Assembly (NCBI RefSeq): GCF_000024885.1
Contig: NC_013512.1
Span: 62,001 to 126,000 of the forward strand
DNA from: Sulfurospirillum deleyianum DSM 6946
GTDB taxonomy: Bacteria; Campylobacterota; Campylobacteria; Campylobacterales; Sulfurospirillaceae
Reading direction: 5' to 3'
DNA length: 64,000 bases
Position numbers and translations under genes: made by a program. This document shows, one piece after another, positions 42,176-56,703 of this stretch (its first letter is position 1; every line of letters begins with the position of its first letter). Below the pieces are notes generated by a model. It made no database searches. It saw only the letters and a list, made by a program, of their open reading frames with translations, and was not told the origin of the DNA.

Positions 42176-43867
42176 ATGAAAATCTCAACCCGTATTCTTA
42201 TCTCGTTAATACTTTCCCTTGCTCTTTTGGGTGGCTCTATCATAGGTGTTTCGTACTACAACACCAAACAAAATGCACGGATGTTTATTCAGGAGTATGA
42301 ACGTAGCGCTTTAGCGTTTCATCAAAATGAACTCAAAACGCTGATGGATGTTATGCAACAAACGGCAAGTGGTATTTATAGAGACCAAAAAGCTAAAGGC
42401 TCAAGTGATGAGCAGATTAAAAAGGCGATTTTGGCAAAATTTGACACGATGCGTTTTTTTGATGATAAAAGTGGGTATATTTTTGTGTACGAATACGATG
42501 CTACCAATGTTTTACTTCCTACCAATAAATCCCTCGAAGGAAAAAATCTTGGAAATCTTAAAGATTCCAATGGTGTCTTTTTTGTTAAAGAGATGATTGA
42601 AGCGGCGAAAAAAGGAGGCGGTTTGGTGCAGTACTTTTTTCCAAAAGTTAAAGATGGTGAACCGCTTTTAAAATATGCGTATGCGGTTCCTTTTGAGCCG
42701 TATAAATGGATGTTGGGTACGGGTCTTTATGTGGATAGTGTCGAAAAAGAGATACAAAAACTTCAAGCGGTGATTGATGAAAACAGTGCGTCACAAATCC
42801 AATCGTTTTTGGTTATTTCTATCATTTTACTGTTACTAAGTCTTGGCATAACGCTTTTTATCATTAAGCGTACCATTTCACAACCACTTAATGACCTCAT
42901 TGAGCGTGCGAACAATCTCTCCAGCGGTGATGGTGATTTAACCCGTAAACTTGACGTGATTGGAAGTGATGAGATTGCACAAGCGAGTGCGAGTATTAAC
43001 CGTTTTATTGAGAAAGTGCGTCTGCTCATTAGCGAAGCCAAAAATCTTTCCAATGAAAACTCCTCTATCTCTCATGAGCTCTCTTCGACTTCTTTGGAAG
43101 TAGGGCGTGCGGTTGAAACCTCGATGAACATTGTAGGAAGCACCACTGCAAAAGCCAATACCCTTAAAACAGAGATGAGTTCAGGTATGTTGGAAGCTAA
43201 AGCAGGTAAAGAGGAGCTTCTTAAAGCCAACACCTTTTTAAATGAGGCGAATAGGGCGATTTTAGAACTTACGCACCAAATTCAAACCAGTGCGGCAACG
43301 GAAATTGAACTAGCCCATAAAGTACAGCAGTTAAGCTTGGATGCTTCTCAAGTCAAAGATATTTTGGTGGTCATTGGGGATATTGCGGATCAAACGAACC
43401 TTTTAGCTCTGAATGCTGCCATTGAAGCCGCACGGGCTGGGGAGCATGGGCGTGGTTTTGCTGTCGTTGCGGATGAAGTACGAAAACTCGCCGAGCGTAC
43501 GCAAAAAAGCCTTCAAGAGATTAATGCCACCATTAATGTCATTGTTCAAGCTATTACCGATAGTTCTGAGCAGATGAGTGCCAACTCTAAAAAAGTGGAG
43601 TCTTTAGCCACTACCGCCAGTGGGGTTGAAAGTAAGATTAACAACATGTTTACTGTTATGAATAACGCTACCAACGTCTCCGATAAAACCGCTGAAAACT
43701 ACCTCAAAACAGGCACAGATATAGAAGTGATGATAGGCAATGTCGCTCAAATTAATGATATCTCCAGCCAAAATGCTAGAAGTGTGGAAGAGATAGCTGG
43801 AGCGGCTGAACACCTCAGCAAAATGACCGAAATGCTCAACCTCAAACTCTCCGAATTTAGAACCTGA
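42176..43867 (+). CDS. Methyl-accepting chemotaxis protein with sCache_2 sensor (paralogue 1)
   Basis: A 563-residue transmembrane chemoreceptor. TM1 is at about 8-28. The periplasmic sCache_2 domain (about 35-200) has [31 protein letters not shown] and [15 protein letters not shown]2 is at about 208-230. HAMP is [20 protein letters not shown]. The signalling tip contains [20 protein letters not shown] and [15 protein letters not shown]. There is no CheB/CheR tether. GAGGAG precedes the ATG. An equal-length paralogue follows 206 nt downstream. Confidence 0.94.
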
Positions 43868-44073: not shown

Positions 44074-45765
44074 ATGAAAATCTCGACAAGAATTCTACTG
44101 TTACTGGTGTTATCGTTGCTCATTTTGGGATTAAGTATTATTGGTATTTCTTATTACAATACAAAATCGAATGCAAAAGCATTTCTTGCTGATTATGAAA
44201 AAAGTTCCTATACGTTTTACGAGAATGAACTAAAAACCATTATGGAGATTGTGCAACAAACTGTTCACGCCATTTATAAAGACCAAAAAGCAAAAGGCTC
44301 GAGTGATGAGCAGATTAAAAAAGCAATTCTAGCAAAACTGGACATGTTACAATTTTTTAACGATAAAAGTGGTTACATCTTCGTGTATACCCATGAAGGC
44401 ACCAATATTTTAACCCCCACCAATAGAGCGCTTCAAGGTCAAAACCTAATCGGACTTAAAGACAGTAACGGTGTTTTACTGATTAAAGAGTTGATTGAAG
44501 CAGCAAAAAAGGGTGGAGGATTAGTCAAATACCACTTTCCAAAAATAAAAGACGGCAAACCCCTTCCAAAATTTTCCTATGCCATCTCTTTTGAACCTTA
44601 TAATTGGATGATTGGCACAGGAGTGTATGTTGATAATGTTGATGCAGAGATAGGAAAACTTCAAGATCAAATTCATGCAAATACCACCGAAGAAATCCAA
44701 TCGTTTTTGGCTATTTCTATTATTTTACTGTTTTTAAGCCTTGGCGCAACGCTCTTTATCGTTCAGCGCACCATCTCAAGACCACTCAATGACCTTATAG
44801 AGCGTGCGAACAATCTCTCCAGCGGTGATGGTGATTTGACCCGTAAACTTGACGTGATTGGTAGTGATGAGATTGCACAAGCGAGTGCGAGTATTAACCG
44901 TTTTATTGAGAAAGTGCGTCTGCTCATTAGCGAGGCTAAAAATCTTTCCAATGAAAACTCCTCTATCTCACATCAACTCTCTTCAACTTCACTTGAAGTA
45001 GGGCGTGCGGTTGAAACCTCCATGAACATTGTAGGGAACACAACCACAAGAGCACAGATTCTAAAACAAGAGATGAATACAGGTATCACCGAAGCTAAAG
45101 TAGGAAAAGAAGAGCTTCTAAAAGCCAATGCGTTTCTTAGTGAAGCCAACGGAGCCATCTTAGAGCTGACACAAGAGATACAAACGAGTGCGGCAACCGA
45201 AATTGAACTTGCTCATAAAATTCAACAATTAAGTTTGGACGCTTCTCAAGTCAAAGATATTTTGGTGGTCATTGGTGACATTGCAGACCAAACCAATCTT
45301 TTAGCGCTTAATGCGGCTATCGAAGCCGCAAGGGCGGGTGAACACGGACGTGGTTTTGCCGTTGTTGCGGATGAGGTACGAAAACTCGCCGAACGTACGC
45401 AAAAGAGTCTTCAAGAAATCAATGCCACCATCAATGTCATTGTTCAAGCCATTATGGATAGTTCGGAACAGATGAGTGCGAACTCTCAAAAAGTGGAGTC
45501 TTTAGCTACAACCGCCAATGGGGTTGAGAGTAAAATTAACCATATGTTAAATGTGATGAATAACGCAACTCAGGTCTCCGATAAAACCGCAGAAAATTAC
45601 TTGAAAACGGGTGCAGATATTGAATTGATGATTAATGACGTAGCACAGATTAACGACATCTCCAGTCAAAACGCTAGAAGTGTGGAAGAGATAGCTGGAG
45701 CAGCGGAACACCTCAGCAAAATGACCGAAATGCTCAACCTCAAACTCTCCGAATTTAGAACCTGA
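44074..45765 (+). CDS. Methyl-accepting chemotaxis protein with sCache_2 sensor (paralogue 2)
   Basis: A 563-residue receptor of the same architecture and length as its upstream neighbour. The sCache_2 domain (about 35-200) differs at many positions (for example [20 protein letters not shown] and [13 protein letters not shown]). From HAMP onward the two are almost identical, including an unbroken run of about 80 residues starting [11 protein letters not shown]. It probably senses a different ligand and signals through the same CheA/CheW array. Confidence 0.94.
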
Positions 45766-46852: not shown

Positions 46853-47365
46853 TTGGAATACTACAAATGGGTTTTAGCCTTCCATGTGATGGCATTTCTT
46901 TCGTGGATGGCAATGCTTTTTTATTTGCCTCGTCTTTTTGTTTATCATGTGGAGCATGCTGAAAAAAAAAGCTTTGTTGATGTGGTAAAAATCCAAGAGT
47001 ATAAAATGTATAAATATATCGGGCTTCCTGCCTTTTGGGCGACACTGGCGAGTGGACTTTTGATGATTATCCTCGATACCCAACTGCTTAGCAGTGGCGG
47101 ATGGATTTACGCCAAATTTGCAGTTGTACTCGCTCTTACTCTCTACTCTTTTTCGCTCGAGAAATACCGCTTAGAACTTGCTAATGGCACCTGCATGAAA
47201 AGTGGAAAATTCTTTCGAGCCTACAACGAAGTTCCAACTGCTTTAGCCGTTTTAATTGTAGGCTATGTTATCACTAAAAGCTTTTCATGGGCATTTACAC
47301 TGATTACGTTGGGTATTTTAGCGATGATTATGGATATGATTTTGGATGGGAAAGAGAAAAAGTAG
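46853..47365 (+). CDS. hemJ: Protoporphyrinogen oxidase HemJ
   Basis: A 170-residue membrane enzyme that oxidises protoporphyrinogen IX in haem synthesis. Four membrane helices are visible. The conserved His is in LAFHVMAFLSWMAMLFYLPR and a second in VYHVEHAE; EVPTALAVLIV is typical. It uses a TTG start after GAAGGA. It ends within a 30-bp palindrome and is convergent with the cytochrome b cluster, which itself needs haem. Confidence 0.88.
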   Translation: MEYYKWVLAFHVMAFLSWMAMLFYLPRLFVYHVEHAEKKSFVDVVKIQEYKMYKYIGLPAFWATLASGLLMIILDTQLLSSGGWIYAKFAVVLALTLYSFSLEKYRLELANGTCMKSGKFFRAYNEVPTALAVLIVGYVITKSFSWAFTLITLGILAMIMDMILDGKEKK

Positions 47366-47388
47366 TCTTTACATGTAAAGACTACTTT
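47359..47388. terminator. 30-bp perfect palindrome between hemJ and the cytochrome b cluster
   Basis: The iterated TTTACATGTAAA core is extended by GTC/GAC and AGTA/TACT steps to a perfect 30-bp palindrome that includes the hemJ stop codon and overlaps the stop of the convergent small gene. On the minus strand it is followed by CTACTTTTTCTC, a good terminator for the cytochrome operon; on the + strand the T-run is weak. Confidence 0.65.
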
Positions 47389-47635
47389 ATCCTTCTTTGT
47401 GATGCGTGCGTTGCAGAATGATTTTAATGTAAAGCAAAAGAGAAACCACTAAAAAATAACCTATGATGGTATATCCCATCGTATTTCGCTTTTGTTGTTC
47501 AACTGTTTCAATGACCTCTTGAACTTCAACATGTGTGGTTTGCACAAAGGAAGAATGGTAAGGTAAGAACTCTAAACCCACATACAAAACGCTCATAAAA
47601 AAGAGGATGATGGCAAAAATTTTAAGATTTGGCAT
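47387..47635 (-). CDS. Small two-helix membrane protein of the cytochrome b cluster
   Basis: An 82-residue protein with two hydrophobic segments (about 5-20 and 54-74) and a polar linker, ending in RTHHKEG. It is not recognised and has no haem-binding CxxCH. It overlaps the cytochrome b gene by 14 nt and occupies the place where a cytochrome c1/PetC gene is usually found, so it may be a small subunit of the complex. Confidence 0.65.
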   Translation of the reverse strand: MPNLKIFAIILFFMSVLYVGLEFLPYHSSFVQTTHVEVQEVIETVEQQKRNTMGYTIIGYFLVVSLLLYIKIILQRTHHKEG

Positions 47636-48782
47636 GTGCTTCCTTTTGGGATAAAAACGGCAACAAAATAAAAAGGGTCATTATTAAGGTTGAAAAAATA
47701 AATCCCAACCATAACGTAAGCTCTGTTGTGGGAAGTTTTCCTAAAATCGTCAGTGCCACCAAAGAGAGTACCAATGCCCAAAACCACGCACAAAAGTAAG
47801 GACGCTGATGTGCGGGAATGCGTCTAGGGTTTCTGTCTAAAAGAGGCATCAAGAGCAAGCCCACATTGACCACGACCAAAGAGATCATGCCAATGTACGA
47901 ACCTTTAATCATCCCAATGTCAAAGAAGAAGCTCTTTAGCAGTTGTAGCATCCATAAAAAATACCACTCAGGATAGATATGAGAGGGTGTGTCGGCTGGA
48001 TTGGCGGGGGTGAGATTGAGGGCGTCAAAGGCAATGGAGCTTTGAAAAAAGACGCAATAAAAAAAGAACGCTAAAAAGAGGGTAGATGCTAAAAGTGGTT
48101 TTAAAACGGCATTGGAGAAAAAAGGTTTTGGCTCTTTTGCGGGTAAAACATGTTTGCTAAAACGCTCCTCTTTGCTTACATGTAAACCTTTACGATTCCA
48201 TGAAAGTTTGGTCGTAGCGTACCATTTTATAAAGTCCGTATGCACAAGAATCATCAAGGCAATGGCAAAGGGCATCACCACAATATGCAGCGTGTAAAAA
48301 CGAAGTAGGGTGATGCCACTCACACTAAAATCACCTCGCACCCAGAGCACAATGTCCTCTCCAGCGCCTGGAATATACTCCAATAAGCTCGTAATCACCT
48401 GCGCCGCCCAGTAGCTCATCTGCCCCATCGGAAGCACGTAGCCTGTAAAACCTATCACCATACAGCAAAAGTAGAGCACCATACCGTTATACCAATACTT
48501 CGTTTTACCGTGTTTATAAAAACCAAAATAGAGCATACCCAACAGATGAATGTAGAGCAGTAAAAAGAAAAAAGTCGAACCCACAGCGTGAATACTTCGC
48601 CAAAGCCAACCGTAGTCTACCTCATGCATAATCGTCGTGTGGACACTCTCAAAAGCTTGATTGGCATCAGGGATATAGTGCATGGCAAGAAAAATACCTG
48701 AAATCAAAAGCAAAAGGCACACAATGACCATAATGGTGCCTGTGTAGAGTAAGATGTTGAAATTACTGAGTTTGAGATTCAT
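47622..48782 (-). CDS. petB: Cytochrome b of a Rieske/cytochrome b complex
   Basis: A 386-residue inner-membrane quinol-oxidising subunit with about eight helices. Helix 2 has His ligands in SIHAVGS and YIHLLG (13 residues between). Helix 4 has TLHIVV and LVHTDF (14 between, as in cytochrome b6). The quinol site motif is PEWYFLW. The first helix region is short. It overlaps the Rieske gene by 4 nt. A TTACATGTAA copy (48176-48185) is read as GLHVS. Confidence 0.9.
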   Translation of the reverse strand: MNLKLSNFNILLYTGTIMVIVCLLLLISGIFLAMHYIPDANQAFESVHTTIMHEVDYGWLWRSIHAVGSTFFFLLLYIHLLGMLYFGFYKHGKTKYWYNGMVLYFCCMVIGFTGYVLPMGQMSYWAAQVITSLLEYIPGAGEDIVLWVRGDFSVSGITLLRFYTLHIVVMPFAIALMILVHTDFIKWYATTKLSWNRKGLHVSKEERFSKHVLPAKEPKPFFSNAVLKPLLASTLFLAFFFYCVFFQSSIAFDALNLTPANPADTPSHIYPEWYFLWMLQLLKSFFFDIGMIKGSYIGMISLVVVNVGLLLMPLLDRNPRRIPAHQRPYFCAWFWALVLSLVALTILGKLPTTELTLWLGFIFSTLIMTLFILLPFLSQKEAHAKS

Positions 48783-49279
48783 GCGTTTGCTTTCTCCATC
48801 AGTTGAAGGTAGGCTTCACTCACTTCCCCGACAATTAACGTTTCACCTTCGATTTTAAAGGGAGGAATGACGAGGGGTTTGCTGACAGGTCCAGCAATGG
48901 CAATGCCATTTTGATCAAACTGTCCATTGTGACAAGGGCAAATAAATTTTTTTGCTTGACTTTCATACTTTGGAACACAGCCTAGATGGGTGCAAATGCC
49001 TATCATCACTGTGTAAAAGTAGTCACCAATCTGAATATCACGCTTTTCATCTAAAGGTAAAGAGGCATCTTTTTTAAGAATAAAAAGCGGTTTTTTCTGC
49101 CATGTGAAAAAGGAGACTTCATTGAGGGGAAGGGTGGTGGTATCAATAAACGTAGCCGCATCCAAACGGGCCTTTTTGGGTGGTTCTAAAGAGGTAAACA
49201 TGGTTTTCACACTAAAGTACACACCGCTCCCCGCCAAAGCGATGAGCGAGTAGTTCACAATTCGACGGTTCCTATCCAT
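48779..49279 (-). CDS. petA: Rieske iron-sulfur protein
   Basis: A 166-residue protein with an N-terminal anchor (about 8-26) preceded by an Arg-Arg pair (DRNRRIVNYSLIALAG), consistent with Tat export. The [2Fe-2S] ligands are in CTHLGCVP and CPCHNGQFD, and the disulfide Cys are the second in each. It accepts electrons from quinol at cytochrome b. It is the first gene of the cluster. Confidence 0.92.
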   Translation of the reverse strand: MDRNRRIVNYSLIALAGSGVYFSVKTMFTSLEPPKKARLDAATFIDTTTLPLNEVSFFTWQKKPLFILKKDASLPLDEKRDIQIGDYFYTVMIGICTHLGCVPKYESQAKKFICPCHNGQFDQNGIAIAGPVSKPLVIPPFKIEGETLIVGEVSEAYLQLMEKANA

Positions 49280-56041: not shown

Positions 56042-56362
56042 CTAATTGCAAGAAGGAACATTTCCACTGTCGCTTGCAAAAGAACTTAAAAAATGATAAA
56101 GATTTAAAAGATCATTTGGATCACTAATTTCAGGGGCGTGTGGACAAAGTACTTGGATAGCTAAGGAGAGTTGGTTGTTTTGATAAAAGTGTTTCCACTC
56201 ATTCATCGTATGTTTTTTCCCCATAACATTACCATTAAATCCGCATGCCGGTTTGAGAACTTTTGAATAATAAACTTTACCTTTCAGGGTACTAGCAGCC
56301 AAAGAGGAGGGAAGTGCACACAATACAGTGAGCATTAAGAGACAATACATCAACTTTTTCAT
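56042..56362 (-). CDS. Exported protein related to cytochrome-like small proteins but lacking CxxCH
   Basis: A 106-residue protein with signal peptide (LMLTVLCALPSSLAAS). The mature part (GKVYYSKVLKPACGFNGNVM, then TMNEWKHFY) resembles small periplasmic proteins annotated with c-type cytochromes in this phylum, but has only isolated cysteines and no haem motif. Disulfide bonding is possible. It lies 26 nt downstream of a cytochrome c gene. Confidence 0.6.
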   Translation of the reverse strand: MKKLMYCLLMLTVLCALPSSLAASTLKGKVYYSKVLKPACGFNGNVMGKKHTMNEWKHFYQNNQLSLAIQVLCPHAPEISDPNDLLNLYHFLSSFASDSGNVPSCN

Positions 56363-56388: not shown

Positions 56389-56703
56389 TTATTTCGGTAA
56401 TTTTGAAATGTATTGTGCAACTTCGTTAATATCTTGCTCACTCATATTCTTTGTCTGCTTTGACATGACCAAAGACGTTCCATGTGCTTTAAATTCACTT
56501 TCTCGGTAAAATTTAAGACTCTCAATTAAATCTTTAACATTTTGTCCTGCGATGATGCCACTTTTACCAAATGCTTTATTTTTGCCATCTATTCCATGGC
56601 AACCTGCACATTGACGGTAGAGTATTTCACCGTTATTTTGTGCGCGTAGAGCTGTAAAAGAAGCGACCAGACAGAAACAAGAGATCCAAATGCGCGGTGT
56701 CAT
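56389..56703 (-). CDS. Periplasmic cytochrome c (c553-type)
   Basis: A 104-residue protein with a signal peptide (ISCFCLVASFTALRA). Haem motif CAGCH is at about 33-37, with the later Met ligand probably in LVMSKQTKNM. It ends MSEQDINEVAQYISKL, as in class I c553 cytochromes. It transfers electrons in the periplasm, presumably to a terminal oxidase or peroxidase. Confidence 0.88.
   Translation of the reverse strand: MTPRIWISCFCLVASFTALRAQNNGEILYRQCAGCHGIDGKNKAFGKSGIIAGQNVKDLIESLKFYRESEFKAHGTSLVMSKQTKNMSEQDINEVAQYISKLPK

Follow-up and report, generated by a model that had tools for sequence, protein, structure and literature searches.

A Rieske/cytochrome b operon of Sulfurospirillum deleyianum whose third gene appears to encode PetC without its haem domain

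Introduction

In this article, we describe a Rieske/cytochrome b operon of Sulfurospirillum deleyianum DSM 6946 in which the place of the cytochrome c subunit is taken by a protein of 82 residues, and we set out the well-supported case, built on sequence comparison, that this small protein is the dihaem subunit PetC (QcrC) found in the usual Campylobacterota complex, minus its entire haem domain, so that the subunit that seems to be missing persists as its membrane anchors. We refer to it as headless PetC, and to the stretch of 64,000 nucleotides in which its gene was found (62001-126000 of the chromosome) as the window. The Rieske/cytochrome b core that it accompanies belongs to a well-known superfamily, and in bc-type complexes the haem of c1/PetC is usually regarded as the electron exit. 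Reading function from the genes, we consider it probable that the operon encodes an accessory complex for the oxidation of menaquinol, with headless PetC as a structural subunit and with direct electron transfer from the Rieske protein to a mobile periplasmic carrier.

Some strains of Sulfurospirillum have been investigated for their respiration of nitrate, sulfur and organohalides. The QcrABC family to which the canonical complex belongs has a role in O2, nitrate and trimethylamine N-oxide (TMAO) respiration and, in Campylobacter jejuni, QcrABC also feeds the nitrate and TMAO reductases, according to PMC6195509. A search confined to the open-access literature, with subscription papers outside its scope, found no description of a headless-PetC complex, and the word Rieske is absent from the main texts of the papers on the S. 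deleyianum genome (PMC3035281), on the S. multivorans proteome (PMC4585668) and on the comparison of Sulfurospirillum (PMC8865925). PMC7755780 deals with a different Rieske-like protein, SMUL_1574, and PMC13209400 names petABC once.

The operon and its Rieske/cytochrome b core

The three genes and their landmarks are collected in Table 1. The preliminary description of this DNA had placed the Rieske, cytochrome b and 82-residue genes and their overlaps correctly (including the 14 nt shared by petB and the 82-residue gene), and it was equally right that the small product is a two-helix protein without haem motif, since the window copy is hydrophobic over two segments, residues 6-24 and residues 56-74, and contains no cysteine. 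It had further remarked that no c1 gene lies behind petB, which holds because the neighbour beyond the 82-residue reading frame is a UPF0093/HemJ-like gene on the other strand.

Table 1. Features of the headless-PetC operon and its neighbour (positions in the window)
Feature	Position	Strand	Remarks
Rieske [2Fe-2S] protein (PetA/QcrA), 166 aa	48779..49279	-	PF00355 32.8 bits; TIGR01416 106.2 bits, cut-off 97.4
Cytochrome b (PetB/QcrB), 386 aa	47622..48782	-	PF00033 167.5 bits; PF00032 92.7 bits
Headless PetC, 82-aa PetC/QcrC homologue without dihaem domain	47387..47635	-	
Headless PetC N-terminal anchor helix, residues 6-24	47564..47620	-	aligns to canonical PetC N-terminal anchor
Headless PetC C-terminal anchor helix, residues 56-74	47414..47470	-	aligns to canonical PetC C-terminal anchor
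Rieske/cytochrome b overlap, 4 nt	48779..48782	-	13/13 operons measured
Cytochrome b/headless PetC overlap, 14 nt	47622..47635	-	12/13 operons measured
PEWY codons, quinol-oxidising (Qo) site, cytochrome b residues 271-274	47961..47972	-	
UPF0093/HemJ-like gene, next after headless PetC, convergent	46853-47365	+	

Both overlap lengths are identical in 12 of the 13 operons measured, the window counted and L028 left aside, its proteins being those of L027. The operon of G022 (L031, a complete genome) has overlaps of 4 and 34 nt and a cytochrome b gene that is frame-shifted near its 3' end; in G031 (L032, a metagenome-assembled genome) the window-type cytochrome b is in pieces. Elsewhere in the window, positions 42176-43867 and 44074-45765 hold tandem genes for 563-aa proteins that by eye resemble methyl-accepting chemotaxis proteins, with near-identical second halves and diverged sensor parts.

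Both marks of the superfamily, the Rieske cluster motifs on the one hand and four haem-ligand histidines with a PEWY-type Qo motif on the other, are present. The cluster motifs CTHLGC and CPCH are intact in all 14 window-type operons, and the window Rieske protein scores above the family cut-off for both PF00355 and TIGR01416. Its loop reads CPCHNG[QH]F in 14/14 window-type proteins, as against CACHGG[VE]F in 15/15 canonical ones; particular Ser and Tyr residues in this loop are a sign of high-potential Rieske proteins, and they are absent from window-type and canonical loops alike. The window cytochrome b carries its b and subunit-IV parts (PF00033 and PF00032) fused in a single 386-aa chain, not split into b6 and subunit IV as in cytochrome b6f, and its sequence matches bc1 cytochrome b entries of the PDB. 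The four-histidine pattern is found in 14/14 window-type cytochromes b, and PEWY in all 28 cytochromes b listed, including an intact copy in each of the 14 window-type operons. An AlphaFold model of the window cytochrome b reached a mean pLDDT of 44.5, at a sequence depth that was too low.

The spacing of the haem ligands deserves separate comment, as it had been described as b6-like. The measurement stands, with 13 residues between His65 and His79 and 14 between His166 and His181, and the interpretation does not: the same 13/14 pattern occurs in 14/14 window-type cytochromes b, in all 46 of the canonical ones tested from Campylobacterota and, among 25 distant rows, in 21 (the other 4 gave no pair). 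The 14 residues between the helix-4 ligands, although shared with b6f, are therefore non-diagnostic; spacing was rejected as the mark of a b6-type complex, and it says nothing about the missing c1.

Identity of the 82-residue protein

Canonical PetC has one membrane helix at its start and another at its end, and headless PetC has only a short variable linker where the periplasmic dihaem domain would be. When the 82-aa protein was compared with the PetC of the same genome, the N-terminal 45 residues of PetC gave a score of 60 (aligned to the first 22) and its C-terminal 50 residues a score of 62 (aligned to the last ~45), neither of which was reached by any of 2000 shuffles, while the score of 19 against the haem domain was reached by 1928 of 2000. 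Searches of Pfam and NCBIfam at E 0.001 gave no match to the protein, and CxxCH occurs in none of the 12 headless sequences counted (window included), nor in the G361 protein. In bc1/QcrABC the third subunit is a cytochrome of the c type bearing CxxCH, of which the Campylobacterota subunit has two; no such cytochrome is encoded here, and the PetC-type N- and C-terminal anchors are. Strictly defined, a bc1/QcrABC complex includes this haem c subunit, and as the operon does not encode one, the window complex falls outside that class.

Profile searches led to the same subunit. A profile built from 14 headless proteins and scanned over 397 whole genomes of the class (E up to 0.001) returned 24 matches, namely 13 headless genes and 11 others; nine of these 11 come from eight genomes and are complete dihaem PetC proteins with two haem motifs, onto which the N half of the profile falls at the start of the protein and the C half at the end, and the remaining two are a 564-aa reading frame without haem motif and a frame containing stops. 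The two halves of the profile were also searched separately against 6591 reading frames from petC-enriched loci (122 of them PetC-like by motif), and PetC or PetC fragments made up 29 of the 30 best non-headless matches for the N half and 26 of 30 for the C half, counts that are not independent because the loci are rich in petC operons, near-copies included. In the eight examples shown per half, the matches lie on the corresponding ends of PetC. AlphaFold gave the 82-aa protein a mean pLDDT of 64, with helices at residues 3-23 and 39-81 placed at low confidence.

Distribution and origin

Of 24 Sulfurospirillum genomes, 15 carry the headless gene, and these are exactly the ones with a window-type cytochrome b (85-92% identical to the window copy where intact), with S. 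diekertiae JPD-1 and Sulfurospirillum sp. SCADC among the named carriers. The headless gene lies behind every window-type cytochrome b found, in Sulfurospirillum and in two genera of another family, and is in this way linked to a cytochrome b lineage of its own. Across the class, 384 of 397 genomes have a cytochrome b match and 13 have the window type. Outside the genus these 397 genomes contain one window-type cytochrome b, that of G361, which scores 674 bits where all other non-headless matches score at most 365, and which is followed by a headless PetC of 72 residues. A scan of 153 genomes of the family of G361 added G451, which has the same N-terminal piece of the gene as DDHL01000117.1 of Campylobacteraceae bacterium UBA1877; there the headless gene runs off the end of that contig and onward on another sharing 23 exact terminal bases; joined across this assembly overlap, the protein has 74 residues and no space for a haem domain.

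A tree of 65 cytochromes b (8 headless-type, 39 canonical Campylobacterota and 18 distant rows as outgroup) grouped all eight headless-type sequences together (100/99), next to the 39 canonical Campylobacterota rows (97/92); their branch is long, and the tree tool warns that long branches meet. In a 54-row tree, the AU test did not reject a grouping of the headless type with the canonical Sulfurospirillum rows (p 0.18). The tree topology favours an old split of the headless-type cytochrome b, which would make a recent duplication within Sulfurospirillum the less favoured origin.

Canonical petABC operons and the route of the electrons

The preliminary description had proposed to search the genome for a standard petABC operon, and S. 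deleyianum has two: its two further cytochromes b, 42% identical to that of the window, each sit in a canonical petABC operon with a 288-aa PetC carrying two CxxCH motifs. These operons (L002:880-3515 and L003:880-3515) are near-identical, differing at 7 of 2636 aligned bases (5 of these mismatches fall in the first 9 bases), and lie ~1.1 Mb apart on the single chromosome of 2,306,351 bp (G000:C1, at about 740 and 1,859 kb). Upstream of one copy, L002:60-879 holds a gene for a 97-aa monohaem cytochrome c, preceded by the end of what by eye resembles a molybdopterin oxidoreductase gene. A similar small CxxCH gene lies upstream of petA in 7/7 loci L041-L047, and also in L034 and L040, and it may link such petABC operons to a dedicated reductase. 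The PetC profile (E up to 0.001) found no separate PetC head in S. deleyianum, only the two petABC operons.

The window operon would then encode a third Rieske/cytochrome b complex of this organism, accessory to the two canonical ones, in which headless PetC would occupy the seat of PetC on cytochrome b and keep the complex together. With the Rieske motifs, haem ligands and PEWY intact, menaquinol oxidation with electron bifurcation is expected, and it would proceed at the Qo site by an ordinary Q-cycle. Because there is no tethered c haem on which to dock, the Rieske head should pass its electron straight on to a mobile carrier in the periplasm or to a periplasmic reductase. To the most explicit version of this proposal, in which a haem-free membrane frame is the sole remnant of the cytochrome c subunit and a swinging Rieske head reduces diffusing periplasmic partners, we would give about an even chance.

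It is conceivable, although we think it improbable, that a canonical PetC joins the window Rieske protein and cytochrome b and supplies the haems, headless PetC being an extra subunit or a placeholder. Canonical PetC is indeed present in all 17 genomes that carry the headless gene (15 Sulfurospirillum, G361 and G451), in G018 only as pieces at two contig ends. The preliminary description had counted a dedicated PetC encoded elsewhere and joining this complex against its reading; PetC does exist elsewhere, but 13 of the 14 full-length matches to its profile lie directly behind a canonical cytochrome b (the 14th is that of G451), which speaks against its service to the window complex. The window cytochrome b is, moreover, only 42% identical to the canonical one, and a canonical PetC with the same two anchors would presumably compete with headless PetC for the same seat. 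As for G018, which has a single cytochrome b match, it was considered as a headless-only genome and rejected as such on account of the canonical PetC pieces, which suggest that the assembly broke where an operon is duplicated.

Similarly improbable is that the complex is not a cytochrome reductase at all and that it serves as a quinol sensor or assembly factor or is a decaying relic, as the loss of the haem domain and the broken cytochrome b in 2 of 15 Sulfurospirillum copies (G022 and G031) might suggest. The selection data speak against this, since all three genes are under purifying selection, with median pairwise dN/dS of 0.057 for cytochrome b, the most strongly constrained (51/66 pairs not saturated), 0.12 for the Rieske protein (45/66) and 0.21 for headless PetC (27/66); the haem ligands, PEWY and Rieske motifs are intact in the intact copies, and the operon is kept across three genera and two families. 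The headless protein does evolve much faster than its own cytochrome b (0.21 vs 0.057), which fits a loosely constrained structural role and fits partial decay as well.

Less probable again is a mixed dimer of window and canonical cytochrome b, in which one half would be haem-headed and electrons would cross between the halves. In its favour, the headless complex was not found in any genome without canonical PetC (17 of 17); against it, the sequences hold no evidence of a mixed interface, the two cytochromes b have diverged to 42% identity, and the canonical one is common without the headless type (384 of 397 class genomes, against 13). That the 82-aa protein is an unrelated two-helix subunit resembling the ends of PetC by chance is the least probable of these readings, for although the pieces compared are short and hydrophobic and hhalign of the headless profile against whole PetC covered the C-terminal part only, at 56% probability, both halves match the corresponding PetC end in the genome-wide and reading-frame-wide scans, the gene sits where petC would, and K, G and E near the N-terminus and R, G, Y and K near the C-terminus are invariant in both alignments (matched by eye).

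Returning to direct reduction by the Rieske head, the preliminary description was right that the acceptor is not evident, as the operon encodes no c1 subunit that bears haem, and the soluble cytochrome that it put forward (56389-56703) does not fare well. Of the 24 Sulfurospirillum genomes, 21 have an orthologue with at least 53% identity, among them 8 of the 9 without the window complex, and none was found in G012 and G013, two of the 15 that have it; the distribution does not follow that of the complex, and the cytochrome was rejected as dedicated acceptor. Adjoining it, at 56042-56362, is a 106-aa reading frame with a signal peptide and several cysteines by eye, for which no Pfam or NCBIfam match was obtained.

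Comparison with known complexes

The closest relatives are the QcrABC/PetABC complexes of Campylobacterota themselves, which share with the window operon the gene order (Rieske, cytochrome b, PetC-derived gene), the 13/14 spacing, the two PetC anchors and a cytochrome b that is 42-45% identical to the full-length canonical ones of the genus. They differ in that QcrC has a dihaem (c4-type) domain and the headless third subunit none, in the Rieske loop (CACHGG against CPCHNG), and in that the window-type cytochromes b form a separate clade.

We know of no c1 gene accompanying the Rieske/cytochrome b complex of green sulfur bacteria. A possible parallel is that their complex, according to PMC11108878, likewise has a Rieske/cytochrome b core for which a mobile cytochrome has been proposed as acceptor, the electrons being proposed to pass via the membrane-anchored cytochrome c-556. 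The anchored carrier proposed there bears haem, in contrast to the haem-free anchor protein that stands here in the operon place of PetC, and the window operon, far from having no c1-derived subunit, encodes a PetC-derived one.

In the bc1 complex of Aquifex aeolicus (6kls), PMC7004027 describes a c1 that has an N-terminal helix besides the C-terminal one, both touching the rest of the complex; the N-terminal helix binds cytochrome b, enlarges the b/c1 interface by 60% and is reported missing in the mesophiles compared there. The C-terminal part of this c1 matches canonical PetC (chain 6kls_C, E 4.7e-14, profile positions 179-276), and the same chain is the best PDB match of the headless profile at a non-significant E of 0.065 (positions 47-77). 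As both matches cover only the C-terminal part of 6kls_C, a homology of its N-terminal helix to that of PetC would be tentative, and the Aquifex c1, unlike headless PetC, bears haem. A further precedent is the origin of mitochondrial cytochrome c1 as a "collapsed dihaem" subunit (Baymann et al., 2004, as cited in PMC6195509), which resembles the present case in that a PetC-type subunit lost haem capacity and kept its anchor, and differs from it in that one haem was retained there and none in headless PetC.

Discussion

An operon that is under selection and widely kept, and that has lost the haem domain while retaining both anchors, separates the structural role of the cytochrome c subunit from its redox role. 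If the present reading is true, headless PetC would be a natural stage past the dihaem and monohaem forms, and the complex, which probably passes electrons on unlike the normal versions, would provide a general-purpose proton-translocating electron outlet alongside ordinary QcrABC. With the headless operon, nature also offers a clean test of the ability of a Rieske protein to pass electrons to soluble partners when there is no tethered haem. For Sulfurospirillum itself, a third menaquinol-oxidising complex could alter the energy balance sheets of the genus.
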